Positions 1,974-9,817 of a stretch of DNA of 10,320 nucleotides are shown here, in pieces. The position numbers and the translations under genes are program-made. The first letter of the stretch is position 1. Each line of letters opens with the position of its first letter. Location: assembly GCA_016215705.1 (NCBI GenBank), contig JACRIR010000011.1, positions 1 through 10,320 of the forward strand, written 5' to 3'. This stretch comes from Candidatus Poribacteria bacterium (GTDB taxonomy: Bacteria > Abyssobacteria > SURF-5). A model generated the notes under the pieces. That model worked only from the letters and a program-made list of their open reading frames with translations, did no database searches and was not told the DNA's origin.

Positions 1974-3707
1974 ATGAACGCCAATAAGTTTATACCTTCT
2001 GACGGACCGAATGCGATTCTCGCCGCCGGGAAACTTCTTCGCGACCTCTTCGGCTTCTCCGATTTCCTGCCATTTCAGAAAGAGGTCATCGAAGGCATCA
2101 TGCGCGGCGAAGATCTCCTCGTTGTGCTTCCCACGGGTTCCGGCAAGTCGCTTTGTTTCCAAATACCGGCGCTTCTCCGCAAGGGGCTGACTGTTGTCAT
2201 CTCTCCTTTGATTGCGCTGATGAAGGATCAGGTAGACGCTCTTTGCGCGCGTCATCTGCCTGCGGCGTGTCTTCACAGTTCGCTGCGGCATTCGGAGAGC
2301 AAGCGGATTCTGGACGACGTAAGAGACGGCCGGCTGAAGTTGGTCTACGTCTCGCCAGAGCGGCTGCGCGACGGTTTTTTTCTTAACGCCGTTCTCGCCG
2401 CCTGCCAAAATCCGCCACTGTGGGTGGTCGATGAAGCCCATTGCATAACCGAGTGGGGACACGATTTCCGCACCGACTACATTAATATTCCTGACGCCCT
2501 CGATTTGATTTCAGGTGATTCGCAACTCGTAATGTTTACGGCAACCGCCACCCCCGTAGTTCGCGAGGATATTCTTCGGCAAATGCGTCGTGAATCCGCG
2601 CGCACTGTATGTGGCAGTTTCGATCGTTCCAACCTGTATCTCGGCTGTCGCCAGGCGTCGTCAAAGGCCGAGAAGCTGCGGACGCTCTCAGAGTTGCTCC
2701 GAAGAGCCGGCCCGGGGATCATATACACCGCAACTCGCAGGCAGTGTGAAGACGTCAACCGGTTCCTCCAGGAACTCGGCAAGAACAGCGACTTTTATCA
2801 CGCGGGTCGCTTGGCCCATGAGCGCGCGGAAGTCCACGACAGGTTCATGACGAATGGAATCGAGGTCGTCTCGGCCACCAACGCTTTTGGCATGGGCGTG
2901 GACAAGTCCGACATTCGTTTCATTATCCATTACGCCCATCCCTCAAGCATCGACGCCTATTACCAGGAGATAGGGCGGGGAGGGCGCGACGGCGGCAGGT
3001 GCGATTGCATACTTCTCTTCTCGCGCTTCGACCGGAAAGTGCAGGAGCGGTTCATCATCGACTCGACGCCCGACGCCGACGCAGTCCAGGATTGTTTCAA
3101 TGCCATTATGTCAGCCGTTAGCGACTCGCAAGGCGGTCACGGCTTGCGCGAGCTTGTCATCAAACGCGCTTTTCACGAGGAGCACCACGTGGAACTGTTC
3201 GAGATGGAGAAAGTGGGACTCCTGAGCCGGCGCACGGTCATGTGCGGCAGGGCTTCCGTCTACCTCCCGGGTGATCTCGGCAGGGCTCTCCGGTTATGCT
3301 CGCCCGAACAGATGAAAGTCCTCGTCGCGCTCGAAAAGAGCATCAGGCTTTCCCGAAAAGGTTTCGCCCAGTCAGTGGATTTGAATGCCTTCCGTCAAGA
3401 GCACTTTCCGGAGACCGGCCTTTTTGCCTTGGAGCAAACCCTCCTGCAAATGAACAGCCGCGGAATCATCGCATACCGTCCGGCCGACCGCAGCATTTAC
3501 TATGAAGTCCGCGCCGATTCTATTCCGGATTCTGCCCGCCGAAGTATTGAAGAAAGCGTCTCCCTCCGTCGCGCCTTCAAGAACCGGCGCCTTAAAATGA
3601 TGATCGAATACGGTTCCCTCCGCTCCTGTCTGCGCGAGTATCTCCTCACCGCTCTCGCAGATCCCACCCCAAAACCGGCATGCGGCTTCTGCGACAATTG
3701 CTTATGA
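1974..3707 (+). CDS. recQ: RecQ-family ATP-dependent DNA helicase
   Basis: This is a 577-residue superfamily 2, 3'-5' helicase acting in recombinational repair. Motifs in order: motif 0 around FGFSDFLPFQ (26-35); Walker A PTGSGKS (53-59); motif Ia VISPLIALMKDQV (75-87); DEAH (153-156) with the RecQ aromatic-rich loop HCITEWGHDF; motif III FTATATP (188-194); motif V ATNAFGMGVDK (301-311); motif VI QEIGRGGRDG (331-340). The zinc site is unusually placed: C552, C570, C573 and C576 lie at the extreme C-terminus, after a winged-helix-like region (about 385-510). In E. coli RecQ the cysteines directly follow the helicase core. No HRDC domain is present. The ATG lacks a good ribosome-binding site, with AAAGGG about 15 bases away. 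It probably shares a transcript with the HU-like gene. Confidence 0.95.
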   Translation: MNANKFIPSDGPNAILAAGKLLRDLFGFSDFLPFQKEVIEGIMRGEDLLVVLPTGSGKSLCFQIPALLRKGLTVVISPLIALMKDQVDALCARHLPAACLHSSLRHSESKRILDDVRDGRLKLVYVSPERLRDGFFLNAVLAACQNPPLWVVDEAHCITEWGHDFRTDYINIPDALDLISGDSQLVMFTATATPVVREDILRQMRRESARTVCGSFDRSNLYLGCRQASSKAEKLRTLSELLRRAGPGIIYTATRRQCEDVNRFLQELGKNSDFYHAGRLAHERAEVHDRFMTNGIEVVSATNAFGMGVDKSDIRFIIHYAHPSSIDAYYQEIGRGGRDGGRCDCILLFSRFDRKVQERFIIDSTPDADAVQDCFNAIMSAVSDSQGGHGLRELVIKRAFHEEHHVELFEMEKVGLLSRRTVMCGRASVYLPGDLGRALRLCSPEQMKVLVALEKSIRLSRKGFAQSVDLNAFRQEHFPETGLFALEQTLLQMNSRGIIAYRPADRSIYYEVRADSIPDSARRSIEESVSLRRAFKNRRLKMMIEYGSLRSCLREYLLTALADPTPKPACGFCDNCL

Positions 3708-3845: not shown

Positions 3846-3874
3846 TTGGCCCGCGGGGGTCTGCGGTGTATAAT
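3846..3874 (+). promoter_or_regulatory. Candidate sigma-70-type promoter of the redox-signalling operon
   Basis: TTGGCC (3846-3851, four of six) lies 17 bp from a perfect TATAAT (3869-3874). The expected start near 3881 leaves a leader of about 15 bases before ATG 3896. That favours the shorter start of the kinase gene over ATG 3785, which lies upstream of this promoter. The 188-bp gap after recQ supports a new transcription unit. This is a motif match only. Confidence 0.45.
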
Positions 3875-3895: not shown

Positions 3896-5974
3896 ATGAA
3901 CTCCCCCGGGCCGGCAAATTTGACGGTTGAATACCCGACAAAGTGCGCGGCTCAGGTGTTCAAGTCAGGAGTCACTGGGGTGGGAATAATTACCACCATT
4001 CCCGAGAAATGCAGGCGATGTTACACCTGTGTGAGGGAATGTCCGGCTAAGGCCATCAAAGTCGAACAAGGCCAGGCGACCGTCATCGAGACGCGCTGCA
4101 TCGCGTGCGGCAACTGCATCAAAGTTTGCGCGAAGAAGGCCAAGAAGATCGCGGACAGCGCCGCCGAAGTCTTGCAGATGCTGCAAGGAAACAAGCGTGT
4201 TTTCGCGATCCTTGCGCCTTCCTTTCCTGCGGCCTTTGCTGAACACAGGCCCGGCCAAATCATCACTGCCATTCGTAGGCTCGGATTCGAGGAGGCCTGG
4301 ATGGTTGCCTTCGGCGCCGAGCTTGTAAGTCGGGAGTACGCAAAGCTATTCAGGAAAATGAAGGAAAGCAGGAAGTTCGTGATCGCGAGCCCCTGCCCGG
4401 CCATCGTGTCCTTCATCGAACAGTATGCTCCCTCACTCGTCGATTATCTTGCGCCGATTGTTTCGCCCATGATTGCTACGGGCAGAGCTATCCGAAAAAG
4501 ACATGGTTGCGACGCGCACGTTGTTTTCATTGGACCCTGCACGGCCAAGAAGGCCGAAATCCACGAGCCCTCCCTTGCAGGCGCTGTCGACAGCGTTCTC
4601 ACTTTCGCTGAACTGGATAGAATGTTCGACAGTGGAGGCATTAAGGTGGCCGACTTGCCAAACAGCCGTCTTGATGGTCCACTTGCGTTCACGGGCGGTT
4701 CGTTTCCTCTTCCCGGAGGGTTAGTCAAGACCGCCGGCCTCGAGGCCGATATTCTCGAAAACGACATAATTTCCACTGAAGGCAAAGACCGCGTTCTCAG
4801 CGTGCTCAACGAGTTAGTGAAATCGCCGCGGCAAGCGCTCCTGGTTGACGCCCTTTTCTGCGAAGGTTGCATCAGCGGCCCCGTGATGAGGAATGAGCTT
4901 ACCGTATTCGCACGGAAGCAGATAATAATCAACTTCATCGACGACCTGAGATTGAACGTTCTGCCTGAAGAAGCGAATGACGCAAGGAGAGAATTCGAGG
5001 ACCTCGACCTCGGGCGTTCTTTTACCCCCAGATGTCTCCTGCTTTCTCAGCCCACAGAGGATGACATAAATCGAGTCCTTATGTCCATGAAGAAATACAC
5101 GTTGGAGGACCAGCTCAATTGCGGCGCCTGCGGGTATCCGACCTGCCGCGAGAAAGCCATCGCCGTATTCCAGGGTCTGGCGGAAGCTGAAATGTGCCTG
5201 CCTTATCTGGTAGAAGAGCTTGAACTCACTTGCGGTGAATTGAAGAAGACCAACGAAGACCTTGCAAACGCCCAGGAGCGGCTGGCGCTCACGGAGCGGC
5301 TTGCCTCTCTCGGCCAGCTTTCCGCCGGTGTGGCGCACGAGATTAACAATCCGTTGGGGACAATACTCCTGTTCTCACATGCGCTCTCAAAACAGATCGA
5401 GCACCAGGACACCCGTCAAAAGGACCTTCAAATGATTGTAAGCGAGGCTACCCGCTGCAAGAGCATCGTGCGGGGCCTTCTGGATTTTGCCCGGCAGTCC
5501 CGGGTGTCGAAGGCGCCCACGAATCTGGCAGACCTCGTCAAGGATGTCGTATCGATTCTCAACACCGCGGCCGCATCCGCGAACGTGCGTCTATTATGTG
5601 ACGTGCCGGCCGATCTGCCCAAGATGATGATCGATGGGGCCCAAATCAAACAGATGTTCATCAATATCGTTCAAAATGGAATCGATGCCATAGCCGGAAT
5701 CGGCGAAGTGAGAATACAGGCGCGCCTGCTCGACAAAGGAAATTTCGTGGAAATCTCAGTCGAGGACAATGGCTGCGGCATCCCGCGCGAAAATCTCTCG
5801 AAGGTGTTTACGCCATTCTTCACGACCAAGAAGATGGGGAAGGGAACCGGCCTGGGTCTCGCGATTGCCTACGGTGTCGTTAAGATGCATTCCGGCGATA
5901 TTTCAATCCAGAGCGAAGCGGGGAAAGGGACCACTGTCCTGGTAAGGCTGCCCGTCGGGAGACGAGAAGGGTAG
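3896..5974 (+). CDS. [FeFe]-hydrogenase-like redox sensor histidine kinase
   Basis: This is a 692-residue soluble fusion. Two [4Fe-4S] ferredoxin motifs (C39/42/45/49 and C68/71/74/78) lead into an [FeFe]-hydrogenase large-subunit-like domain (about 100-345). Its H-cluster loops read SPCPAI (C167), GPCTAKKAE (C215) and FCEGCISGP (C322, C325). An RnfB-type Fe-S domain follows (C409, C412, C417, C434), then a coiled-coil-like linker (about 435-470). HisKA has H481 in AHEINNPL, and HATPase_c has an N-box at N594, DNGCGIP at 624-630 and GKGTGLGL at 648-655. There is no PAS domain or membrane segment. This resembles group C-type sensory [FeFe] hydrogenases, thought to report H2 or redox state by autophosphorylation. 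The proton-relay cysteine is proline (P166), and the last pair is CxxC rather than CxxxC, arguing against catalysis. An in-frame ATG at 3785 would add 37 residues but precedes the candidate promoter. Neither start has a clear ribosome-binding site. Confidence 0.9.
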
Positions 5975-5984
5975 GCGTGAGAGA

Positions 5985-6407
5985 ATGTCGGAACAAGGCC
6001 CGCTGATCGTAATCGTCGACGATGACTTCGACTCCCTCGAGATCATAAGGAATATCCTCGAGCCGGCCGGTTATAAGACGTTGTGTTTTACCGAGCCGAT
6101 GGAAGCGTTGCAGCACATGGCAATCGAAAAGCCTCGTCTTATTATTACGGACTTGATGATGAAATTTATCGACACTGGGTTTGCATTTTCCAGGCAGATA
6201 AGGTTCGATTCGCGTTTCAGCAACATACCCATCATTCTGATAACGGCCGCGTTCAGCCAACGCAGGTTTGCCGTACAACCACAAGACAAGAGGGGCCTCG
6301 AGAAGATGGGGATTGACGCTTTCTTTGACAAACCTGTCGATCCCGATGATCTCCTGGGAAAAGTTCAGGAACTCCTGGGTCAGAGCGGAAAGGAGCAGGG
6401 CAAATGA
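5985..6407 (+). CDS. Stand-alone receiver-domain response regulator
   Basis: This 140-residue protein is a single CheY-like receiver with no output domain. The acidic cluster is D12-D14, the phosphoacceptor D56 (in IITDLMM), the switch threonine T87, and the conserved lysine K116 in DKP. The segment after D56 reads DLMMKFIDTG, lacking the usual proline and one residue longer than the DxxMPxxDG pattern. T87 and K116 are 29 residues apart, against about 22 in CheY, so the beta4-alpha4 region carries an insertion. From memory, DLMM-x3-D-x-G receivers recur beside hydrogenase-like kinases. It starts 10 bp after the sensor kinase and overlaps the next gene by 4 bp (ATGA). It is therefore the likely phosphoacceptor of one or more kinases here, acting by protein contact or as a relay. 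Confidence 0.93.
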   Translation: MSEQGPLIVIVDDDFDSLEIIRNILEPAGYKTLCFTEPMEALQHMAIEKPRLIITDLMMKFIDTGFAFSRQIRFDSRFSNIPIILITAAFSQRRFAVQPQDKRGLEKMGIDAFFDKPVDPDDLLGKVQELLGQSGKEQGK

Positions 6408-7891
6408 ACGTCGAGAAGCCCCGAATCCTTGTCGTAGATGATGAATCCGGCATCCGGGAAGGATGTCGAATCAACCTCGAGATGGAAGGCTACGACGTCG
6501 ACGTGGCCGAAGACGGCTTCGCCGGACTGAAGACTTTCAAGGAGCGAGGAAACTACGCCGTCGCCCTCATCGACCTCAAGATGCCCGGGATGGACGGTCT
6601 GGAGCTAATTGAGAAAATCAGAGAACTCGACCAGGACGTTGTCATGTTTGTGATCACCGCCTATGCGACGCTCGACACGGCGGTCGAAGCGACTAAGAAA
6701 GGCGCATACGGATACATAGCCAAGCCGTTCTCGCCGGACGAAATCTTCCTGCCCATCAAACGCGGAATCGAGAGCCGCAATCTTGCTCTCGAGACGAAAA
6801 GGCTCCGGCAGGAGCGCGAGAATCGTCTGCTCGAGGTGGCATTCGAAAGGTCAAAGAGCAACACCATAATCAGGTGCATGACTGACGGCGTTCTGGTAAT
6901 TAACCGCGACAAACAAATCGTACTCAGGAACGAGGCGGCCCGCCGAATCATCCCCGGTTGCGAAAATCTGCCGCTTCCGGCGTCCCTCAGCGCCCTTGCC
7001 GATTTGCATGAGATAATTGACTTCTTGAATGAGACCGCAACTGCCGACTTCAAACCCGGCATTATTTCAAGAGAAGTCGCCATTGGTGAAACAATATTCA
7101 TGGTGAACGTGAGCCCCGTCATGGAACAGGGTGTGGCGTCTTCCGCCGGCGCCGTCGCAGTGTTCCGCGACATCACGGAGCTCAAGAAGCTTGAGACCGC
7201 GAAGTCCATGTTTGTCAGCATGGTGGCGCACGAGGTGAAGAGACCGCTCGGAGTGATTGAGGGATACCTTAATCTGATCCTGAGCGGTAGGGCTGGAGAG
7301 GATGGGCAAAAGCAGAAGGAAATGCTTGAGCGTTCCCTCATCCGCGCCCGCACCCTTCGACAGATGGTGTCCGAATTGATGAACCTAACCGCCATGGAGA
7401 CTGGCAATTTTGCAATCAAGCGAAATCCTCTGAATATCTCTACGGTCGTCAAAGAGGCCACTGACTCATGTCTTGACAAAGCGAAGGAGAAAGAGATAGA
7501 CCTTTCATTAAGCGTCGAGGGTCCCGGCGGCCAGGACGTCGTTCTCGCCGACAAGAGCGCCATGTTCAGCGTATTTGCAAATCTTATCGACAATGCGATT
7601 AAATATACGCCGGAACGCGGCCATGTTGAAGTGCGGGTGGAAAATGCGGGGAATTATGTCAAGGTGACCGTCCGCGACGACGGTATCGGCATCGACGCCG
7701 GAGAGAAGGACAAAATCTTCGATGAGTTCTTCCGCGCCAGAAACAAGTACACCGCCAGGATTCCCGGCACGGGCCTGGGGCTCACTGTCGCAAAGCGCTT
7801 TGTCGGCCTGCACCAGGGCAAGATTACCGTTGAGAGCGCGCCGGCGCAAGGAAGCGTCTTTACGGTATTTCTGCCCATGTGGGAAGAGTGA
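6404..7891 (+). CDS. Hybrid histidine kinase: receiver-PAS-HisKA-HATPase
   Basis: This is a 495-residue soluble protein. The N-terminal receiver (about 7-120) has acidic residues D12/D13, phosphoacceptor D57 in LIDLKMPGMDG, T85 and K107 in AKPF. A helical linker (about 122-150) leads to a PAS-like domain (about 153-262) with MTDGVLVINRDKQIVLRN and a closing VAVFRDITELKKLE. HisKA carries H276 in VAHEVKRPLG. HATPase_c has N393/N397 in FANLIDNAIKY, DDGIGI (425-430) and GTGLGL (455-460). The receiver-first order means a partner kinase can probably modulate this kinase by phosphorylating D57. The ATG overlaps the previous gene by 4 bp, with GGAG eight bases upstream. The next gene follows immediately. 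No output domain is present. Confidence 0.93.
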   Translation: MNVEKPRILVVDDESGIREGCRINLEMEGYDVDVAEDGFAGLKTFKERGNYAVALIDLKMPGMDGLELIEKIRELDQDVVMFVITAYATLDTAVEATKKGAYGYIAKPFSPDEIFLPIKRGIESRNLALETKRLRQERENRLLEVAFERSKSNTIIRCMTDGVLVINRDKQIVLRNEAARRIIPGCENLPLPASLSALADLHEIIDFLNETATADFKPGIISREVAIGETIFMVNVSPVMEQGVASSAGAVAVFRDITELKKLETAKSMFVSMVAHEVKRPLGVIEGYLNLILSGRAGEDGQKQKEMLERSLIRARTLRQMVSELMNLTAMETGNFAIKRNPLNISTVVKEATDSCLDKAKEKEIDLSLSVEGPGGQDVVLADKSAMFSVFANLIDNAIKYTPERGHVEVRVENAGNYVKVTVRDDGIGIDAGEKDKIFDEFFRARNKYTARIPGTGLGLTVAKRFVGLHQGKITVESAPAQGSVFTVFLPMWEE

Positions 7892-9817
7892 GTGGAAGAC
7901 ATGATGGCAGAAACGCATCCCCTCAACATTCCGGAAGAGTTGAACAAACGCAGACAGATTCTCCTCAGAGAACTGAGGAAGCGGACGCTCTGGTTTGTTC
8001 AACTGCGTTGGTTTGTGCCGCCGAGCATCGTCGCAGTCGCTTTGATGGGATACCTGCTGGGTGTCGAGTTCGAAAAAGCGCCGCTCATAGCGGTCGCTGT
8101 GTTTATGCTCGCATACAACGCCATTCTCTATCTGTGGAGCCGAAACCTCGAGAAAGGTCCCGGATGGAAGACGCAAGACATCAAGCGATTCACGCACCTG
8201 CAGGTTGTCCTTGATTATTTCTCGATGTTTCTGCTTATCCACTTCACCGGTGGCATTGCGAGCCCTCTCGTATTCTTCTTCATCTTCCATGTTGTTTTCG
8301 CCTCGATACTCCTGCCGGCGGCATCCGCCTATTTCTTTGCGCTGTTGGCCGTGGCAGGAACGGTTCTCGTGGCAGCCGCAGAGAATTTCAACGTGCTCGC
8401 CCATTACGGCATCAGGTATCAAGGGCTTGACGTCAACCCCCTCCAGAATCCGTTCCATACCCTGCTCAACCTGGGCTTCTTCGCCGCATCTGTATTCATA
8501 ACAGCCTATTCCACAACGGTAATCATGCCCATCTTCCGGAGAAGGATTCAGAATCTGGCCGAACTTTCTGATACCGTGGTGGCAATCAACAATCGGCTGA
8601 ATGCCCTGTACACAATCACCAAATCGATCAGCTCTACGAGCCGTTTCCAGGCGGTTTTGGATATAGCCACCTCCGAGTTGGCTTCGGTGATGCAGGTTTT
8701 CGGCGTGTCAATCAAGCTTCTGAGCGAGGACGGCAAACAGCTCCACTATGCGTCAACCTATGGATTGCCCCCTGAATTCACGAAGGACAAGGTGGTCGAT
8801 CTCGAAAAGAGTCCTCTTAACCGGCGCATCATCGAGGGCGAACCTTATGTAACGGGCAAGATTAACAGCGGCGAGCTGTTTCAGTATGGCGAGAACTTGA
8901 CCGCGATAGGAGTCAAATCGGCTCTCTTCGTGCCTCTCGCGGTCGAAAGACGTGTCATAGGAATCATGGGCGCTTACAGCACGGAGACGGAGCGCTTCGG
9001 AGTCGATGAGCTTGATTTCTTCAGGCTCGCCGCCGGAATCGTGGCGGTCGCTCTTGAGAACGCGCACGCCTTTGAGTCCATCGAGAAACTGAACAAAGAG
9101 CGCCTTTGGTTCATGTTGCGGGTCGCTCACAACTTGCGGGCGCCCCTTACTTCCAGTCTCAGCATAATCAACATGATCCGTGAAGGCTTCATGGGCGAGA
9201 TAACGGAAGAGCAGCGCCAATATCTTTGCCGGGTCACCGAGCGGGCTAAGGGTATGCTTGCCACGCTGAACGAACTCATGATCCTTGCAGAAACCAGAAG
9301 CCACAAGTCGCAAGCCAAAGGCGCGTCTGTCGACCTTGGCGCGGTCGCGAAGAGAATCAAGGGGACCTTCGAGCAAGAAGCAACACAAAAGGGGATCGCC
9401 TTCGCGGTTGACATTCCTGAGGACTTTCCGGCAATCAGTGGGGATACGGAAGCAATTGAGGAGATGTTCGAGAACCTGGTCTCAAACGGCATCAAATATA
9501 CAAAGCCGGGTGGGAGGGTCAGCGTCGAATTCTCACGGGGAACAGCCGACACGGTTCAGATCAGGTTTGCCGACACCGGCATAGGGATTCCTCAGGACGC
9601 AATGCCGCGTCTGTTCACTGAATTCTTCCGAGCAGAGAACGCCAAGCAAGTCCAGGAAGTGGGAACTGGCCTGGGACTGGCTATCGTAAAAGATATTGTG
9701 ATCCAGCATCAAGGACGGATCAACGTGGAAAGCGACGAGGGAAAGGGAACCACCTTTGTCGTGGTTTTTCCTTGTGCTCATGGCAAGGACCAACCGGCCC
9801 TGCGACCATCTGTCTAG
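7892..9817 (+). CDS. Membrane-bound GAF-domain sensor histidine kinase with RegB-like membrane motif
   Basis: The 641-residue reading starts at GTG directly after the previous stop. ATG at 7904, with GGAAG five bases upstream, is an equally good start and costs four residues. About six membrane segments lie at 41-58, 63-83, 103-119, 123-163 (probably two) and 188-213. FTGGIASPLVFFF contains GGIASPL (120-126), like the quinone-binding GGxxNPF of RegB/PrrB. A short helical linker (about 215-245) precedes a GAF domain (about 250-390; ALFVPL and RVIGIMGAYS). HisKA has H413 in VAHNLRAPL, with Asn replacing the usual Glu/Asp after histidine. HATPase_c has N528 and N532 in FENLVSNGIKY, DTGIGIP (561-567) and [11 protein letters not shown] (591-601). 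A redox or quinone signal is inference; GAF ligands cannot be predicted. No receiver or DNA-binding gene follows. Confidence 0.92.
   Translation: MEDMMAETHPLNIPEELNKRRQILLRELRKRTLWFVQLRWFVPPSIVAVALMGYLLGVEFEKAPLIAVAVFMLAYNAILYLWSRNLEKGPGWKTQDIKRFTHLQVVLDYFSMFLLIHFTGGIASPLVFFFIFHVVFASILLPAASAYFFALLAVAGTVLVAAAENFNVLAHYGIRYQGLDVNPLQNPFHTLLNLGFFAASVFITAYSTTVIMPIFRRRIQNLAELSDTVVAINNRLNALYTITKSISSTSRFQAVLDIATSELASVMQVFGVSIKLLSEDGKQLHYASTYGLPPEFTKDKVVDLEKSPLNRRIIEGEPYVTGKINSGELFQYGENLTAIGVKSALFVPLAVERRVIGIMGAYSTETERFGVDELDFFRLAAGIVAVALENAHAFESIEKLNKERLWFMLRVAHNLRAPLTSSLSIINMIREGFMGEITEEQRQYLCRVTERAKGMLATLNELMILAETRSHKSQAKGASVDLGAVAKRIKGTFEQEATQKGIAFAVDIPEDFPAISGDTEAIEEMFENLVSNGIKYTKPGGRVSVEFSRGTADTVQIRFADTGIGIPQDAMPRLFTEFFRAENAKQVQEVGTGLGLAIVKDIVIQHQGRINVESDEGKGTTFVVVFPCAHGKDQPALRPSV

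Follow-up and report, generated by a model that had tools for sequence, protein, structure and literature searches.

A candidate H2-responsive histidine kinase with an [FeFe]-hydrogenase domain and a shortened metal-site loop

The window analysed here is a whole contig of 10320 bases from a Candidatus Poribacteria genome of 5.47 Mb in 270 contigs. On its forward strand lies a gene encoding a sensory, group C-like (HydS/BfuT) hydrogenase with a fused histidine kinase. The gene product is fairly likely to be a cytosolic histidine kinase that responds to H2, has a modified H-cluster pocket and controls hydrogenase expression. Such a protein probably detects H2 and sets the amount of the hydrogen-making enzyme. 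Protein type and architecture are known, and the shortened metal-site loop, found throughout its clade, appears uncharacterised.

Gene and domain architecture

The reading frame at 3896–5974 (+) is real, and sequence and Pfam agree with its preliminary description in domain order and in the three loop motifs. The start assigned there, ATG 3896, is less likely than GTG 3980, which is probably the true one: it follows an AGGAG Shine–Dalgarno sequence (3967–3971, +) by 8 nt, several relatives start at the same residue, the nearest start codon lies 10–13 residues before the first cluster cysteine in most homologues, and residues 1–27 have a pLDDT <50 in an AlphaFold2 model. The gene (HydS-HK, sensory [FeFe]-hydrogenase-like histidine kinase) is accordingly placed at 3980–5974 (+) and encodes 664 aa, on the basis of its domains, the start evidence and the identity of residues 29–463 with homologues from other phyla (41–58%). 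Residue numbers nevertheless follow the numbering from ATG 3896. Ahead of the gene lies a sigma-70-like promoter match (TTGGCC, 17 nt, TATAAT; 3846–3874, +; 10/12 by pattern match only).

Pfam and motifs bear out the reported fusion of two ferredoxin clusters, an [FeFe]-hydrogenase fold, an Fe-S domain and a histidine kinase, all encoded on the forward strand. Two ferredoxin-type [4Fe-4S] motifs (4010–4129; C39/42/45/49 and C68/71/74/78) precede the H-domain (Fe_hyd_lg_C, 4193–4882, residues 100–329, E 5e-48). The C-terminal Fe-S domain (PF04060, 5120–5197) carries a CX2CX4CX16C motif (C409/412/417/434), also seen in the alignment, and in the AlphaFold2 model a single continuous helix (5198–5395, residues 435–500) joins this domain to the dimerisation helix of the kinase. 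The latter consists of HisKA (5309–5497, residues 472–534), with His481 as phospho-acceptor, and HATPase_c (5633–5956, residues 580–687). A PAS domain was found neither by Pfam nor in the model, where helix 435–500 is unbroken. Because the protein contains no strongly hydrophobic segment (top 19-residue Kyte–Doolittle mean 1.3), it is soluble, as first described. The model, built from 54 sequences, has a pLDDT of 88. Its first 380 residues resemble active [FeFe]-hydrogenases (Z 39.3 for CbA5H and 33–36 for CpI), with ∼350 residues aligned at an rmsd of 2.5–3.0, and Foldseek also matches the ZraS kinase core.

The H-cluster site and its shortened loop

In a clade-profile alignment, C167, C215, C322 and C325 fall on CpI C300, C355, C499 and C503. 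The L1 loop ASPCP (4385–4399, +) contains C167 and has P166 at the position of the relay cysteine C299. The L2 loop GPCTAKKAE (4532–4558, +) contains C215, K218 (K358) and E221 (E361), with G213 at the position of M353. The L3 loop CEGC (4859–4870, +) contains C322 and C325, the counterpart of the bridging C503, and is one residue shorter than CxxxC (C-x-G-G-C or C-x-G-S-C). A107-P108-S109, P191 and F270 correspond to A230-P231-S232, P324 and F417, and the residue set of the diiron pocket is complete. As L320 stands in place of M497, the catalytic set of group A (C299, M353 and M497) is absent. Thus, the exchange of the relay cysteine for proline and the CxxC reading of FCEGC were both correct in the preliminary description. 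Its designation of modified H-cluster ligands was not: the relay position is a non-ligand, therefore all four ligands are present and only the spacing of the last pair is changed. Likewise, its proposal of an altered or absent H-cluster was too strong; the altered loop stands, but absence does not. The four cysteines map and the residues that hold the diiron half are conserved, which makes a cluster that is present within an altered loop more probable than no cluster at all. No CxxC enzyme with a demonstrated diiron unit is known to us.

Many sensory hydrogenases lack the relay cysteine, so that its loss is not unusual (PMC8163306, PMC10055695). In the group D enzyme TamHydS, E252 and E289 constitute an alternative relay and proton path (PMC10407848), and their positions are occupied by L276 (aligned by eye) and D318 in the window protein. 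The alignment suggested as a check thus places the cysteines on the four CpI ligands and leaves both known first relay positions, P166 and L276 (the latter by eye), without a protonatable residue. These two residues, together with the presence of a separate HydABC in the genome, speak against a catalytic hydrogenase of low activity that carries a kinase. That reading is highly improbable, even though all ligands are present and TamHydS itself turns over slowly without a relay cysteine (PMC8163306). Of 102 kinase-free relatives that have Lys358, 70 keep a cysteine at the relay position, among them R. albus HydS (L044:5989-7662; SSCCHS) and most clostridial PAS-type HydS proteins. Since so many of the kinase-free Lys358 relatives retain it, absence of the relay cysteine is no general rule for sensory hydrogenases.

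Homologues were collected in steps, as a search with the whole protein as query is dominated by kinases. A tblastn search against plasmids gave R. albus HydS and two similar proteins; their alignment with the window protein drew 80 genome-contig loci. Eight of these are kinase-fused, their titles naming Planctomycetota, Syntrophaceae, Thermodesulfobacteriota, Aerophobetes, Dehalococcoidales, Bacteroidales and Thermoleophilia. Profile searches in three phylum draws supplied further relatives. The CxxC form of the last loop occurs in 70 of 71 kinase-fused sequences (four of which are duplicates) and in none of 114 kinase-free relatives, the one kinase-fused exception (L216) being a PAS-containing hybrid kinase. 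Relatives with the shortened loop span at least seven phyla; every one of the 70 CxxC sequences has the four ligand cysteines, and none has a relay cysteine. The typicality of this ligand set and domain order, left undecided at first, is therefore settled: both are typical of one kinase-fused clade and absent from the 114 kinase-free relatives examined, the domain order having already been published (PMC5037454, PMC11406978).

Being common to nearly all kinase-fused sequences, the CxxC loop cannot be ascribed to chance or to sequencing or assembly error. Nor is it confined to degenerate proteins, as 60 of the 70 keep the diiron pocket. Among these 60, 13 carry CCxxC, for which a CxxxC reading is possible; the FCxxC of the window protein excludes it. 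As to several origins of CxxC, a quick tree needs two changes, with a sigma54-fused CxxxC clade nested in the CxxC group by FastTree (support 0.10, long stem). Holding the CxxC sequences together scores 11 likelihood units higher (p-AU 0.77). A single origin is thus compatible with the sequence trees and slightly preferred.

Other fusions of the H-domain were also encountered. In L138:1120-3771 (+), and also in L142 and L144-L152, all from Desulfobacterota, ferredoxin motifs, a degenerate H-domain (no K358, CxxxC loop) and an FeS domain are apparently fused to a sigma54 AAA+ activator with a Fis HTH, the domains having been checked in L138 only. From their sequences, these proteins appear to be hydrogenase-like one-component transcription factors. 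In the related genome G001, an RsbW-like HATPase is fused N-terminally to ferredoxin motifs, a degenerate H-domain and FeS (L043:901-2478, −); this may be the ‘C1 with HATPase lacking P1-P3 motifs’ of PMC11406978. A Syntrophaceae MAG has, upstream of its sensor kinase, a further protein (L048:4693-6036, +) that combines a degenerate H-domain with an FeS domain and has no kinase part.

Could the window protein be an ordinary group C sensory hydrogenase, in which CxxC is a neutral variant and function is that of TmHydS or R. albus HydS? R. albus HydS shares the same Fe-S motifs, including CX2CX4CX16C, at 37% identity, and Gly at the M353 position is as reported for TmHydS (PMC8163306). However, loop length tracks kinase fusion (70/71 versus 0/114), the window protein has no PAS domain and its partner is a regulator gene instead of a SpoIIE phosphatase. 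This makes the explanation improbable.

Pocket-keeping and pocket-losing members of the clade

Residues of the diiron pocket are kept in 60 of 70 CxxC sequences, including the window protein. In CpI numbering, they are conserved as K358 and P324 (60/60 each), P231 (59/60), A230 and S232 (58/60 each) and F417 as F or Y (58/60). The other ten sequences, all from Desulfobacterota, form one monophyletic sister clade (support 1.0) that retains the four cysteines but has H or Q for K358, D for A230, A for S232 (9/10) and I, V or T for F417; the M353 position is changed together with these. Where the flank is long enough to judge, 40 of 52 pocket-keeping loci have hydA immediately upstream, against none of eight pocket-losing loci. 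Fisher's p for this comparison (5e-5) overstates it, because the pocket-losing type is a single clade and the contrast is thus a single one in evolutionary terms. In four of the 12 unlinked pocket-keeping loci, a group A hydA is found ∼5–6 kb away on the same contig, and group A HydA is present in all 13 pocket-keeping genomes tested. The searches of four pocket-losing genomes found neither a further H-domain protein nor HydG, nor HydF above the cut-off; in five other genomes of this clade, HydG is above the cut-off.

These data bear on a redox sensor without diiron unit, in which the four cysteines would hold only a [4Fe-4S] cluster and the kinase would read the redox state of ferredoxin or NADH. 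In its favour, every CxxC member has a remodelled last loop, now CxxC, and none has a relay cysteine. In the sister clade the cysteines remain, but the diiron residues are gone and, in four genomes, so are HydF and HydG; a kinase sensor of this fold can thus survive without diiron. NiFe-HydABCSL is reported to have an H-domain whose only cluster is a [4Fe-4S] (PMC9304861). Yet K358 is conserved in the window protein and 59 relatives, almost all of which also have A-P-S, P324 and F/Y417; where diiron is presumably gone, these positions drift. Pocket-keeping genes also sit with hydA. For the window protein such a sensor is thus unlikely, though it is the main rival reading. For the clade as a whole, it is conceivable, and advanced here tentatively, that CxxC members carry a non-canonical H-cluster in which the bridging cysteine, between cubane and diiron unit, has moved with the shortening of L3, so that the site is tuned for sensing or the diiron unit is held differently, and that the sister clade consists of diiron-free redox kinases.

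Seven Bacteroidota genomes with pocket-keeping members (G1010, G1057, G950, G978 and G1167, with loci L218, L220, L221, L223 and L225; G1088 and G926) contain no recognisable HydG, and five of the seven also no HydF above the cut-off. Either assembly gaps or a different maturation route would explain this. The motifs of group A HydA are fully intact in these genomes. Therefore, the missing HydG does not discriminate, and it was dropped as evidence against diiron.

Gene neighbourhood and proposed signalling

Downstream of the sensor gene, Pfam identifies a stand-alone response regulator receiver (RR; 5985–6407, +), a receiver–histidine kinase (RR-HK; 6404–7891, +) that overlaps it by 4 bases and a kinase with six membrane helices and a GAF domain (6TM-GAF-HK; 7892–9817, +). 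The promoter-like match and the close spacing of these three genes suggest, at the level of sequence, that hydS, RR, RR-HK and 6TM-GAF-HK constitute an operon. In every one of the 61 homologous loci whose flank extends far enough, a regulator gene comes after the sensor, RR-HK being the conserved third gene in most; in L051 the regulator slot is taken by a sigma54-type response regulator. Four loci (L047, L050, L052 and L054) have hydA and other hyd genes upstream, and two of them (L047 and L052) have hydG downstream. PAS-type HydS genes are followed by a SpoIIE phosphatase instead of a regulator gene. The window sensor gene has no hydA neighbour; it is flanked by RecQ and by the RR and kinase genes, and the contig ends at 10320. 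Within the window, no gene for a DNA-binding output protein is present. Upstream lie an HU/IHF-like gene (1627–1953, +) and the RecQ helicase gene (1974–3707, +), with no evident link to the sensor.

Another contig of the host encodes, in order, HydC, HydB, HydA, RR, 6TM-GAF-HK, HydG, AspA, HydF and HydE, so that the search for maturases proposed in the preliminary description finds all three. Directly behind this hydA come the RR, 33% identical to the window RR, and the kinase, 57% identical to the 6TM-GAF-HK of the window. These paralogues tie the window locus to the catalytic hyd cluster.

We infer the cofactor content, H2 as the signal, the direction of the response and the phosphotransfer partners, and on the favoured reading of an H2-responsive kinase the mechanism would be as follows. 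The two N-terminal [4Fe-4S] clusters would feed an H-domain that holds an H-cluster, i.e. a [4Fe-4S] cluster and a diiron unit built by HydE, HydF and HydG, in a pocket without relay cysteine and with its bridging cysteine on a CxxC loop shorter by one residue. Owing to these two features, turnover is expected to be very slow, and states that are reduced or have H2 bound would persist for long. A change of state would pass through the C-terminal Fe-S domain and the unbroken helix 435–500 to the kinase dimer, whose state would set autophosphorylation of His481. Phosphate would then move to the adjacent response regulator and RR-HK, whose phosphorylation may adjust expression of HydABC and the maturases.

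If so, the protein touches on the question of how [FeFe]-hydrogenase sensors relay the H2 signal. The C-terminal cluster of the group D model enzyme is unresponsive to H2 (PMC13104023). Here sensor and kinase form one chain, and a helix leads directly to the phospho-acceptor His, so that H2-dependent autophosphorylation could be tested on a single purified protein. The clade, with some members that have the diiron pocket and others that do not, offers a natural comparison, and the conserved deletion at the bridging-cysteine loop is open to direct probing by hydrogenase chemists.

Among known systems, HydDB lists a group C1, ‘histidine kinase-linked (putative)’, for which H2 sensing via histidine kinases was proposed (PMC5037454), as in the reading given here. 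In Hydrogenedentota, Calditrichota and Bacteroidota, BfuT of sub-type V (group C3, with a His-kinase domain) also combines H-domain and histidine kinase, and its gene adjoins a group A3 bifurcating hydrogenase (PMC11406978). Linkage to hydA is seen in 40/52 pocket-keeping relatives with enough flank, but not for the window gene itself. That account, in the main text, makes no mention of the CxxC loop or of the conserved RR and RR-HK genes. In the main texts of the open-access literature, no published CxxC variant of L3, association with kinase fusion or pocket-losing sister clade was found. TamHydS, of Thermoanaerobacter mathranii, resembles the window protein in lacking the relay Cys and in its C-terminal [4Fe-4S] cluster; it turns over slowly and is a proposed H2 sensor (PMC8163306, PMC13104023), but it has no fused kinase and relies on the E252/E289 path (PMC10407848) where the window protein has L276 (by eye) and D318. 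Group C PAS-type HydS proteins (R. albus L044, TmHydS) share the two N-terminal clusters, the H-domain, CX2CX4CX16C and Gly at M353, but have a PAS domain, as published; R. albus HydS further differs in its SpoIIE phosphatase partner, its CxxxC loop and its relay-position Cys. The [NiFe] regulatory hydrogenase with HoxJ is alike in its working, as a slow hydrogenase coupled to a histidine kinase that controls hydrogenase genes, but has an unrelated [NiFe] fold and its kinase is a separate subunit.
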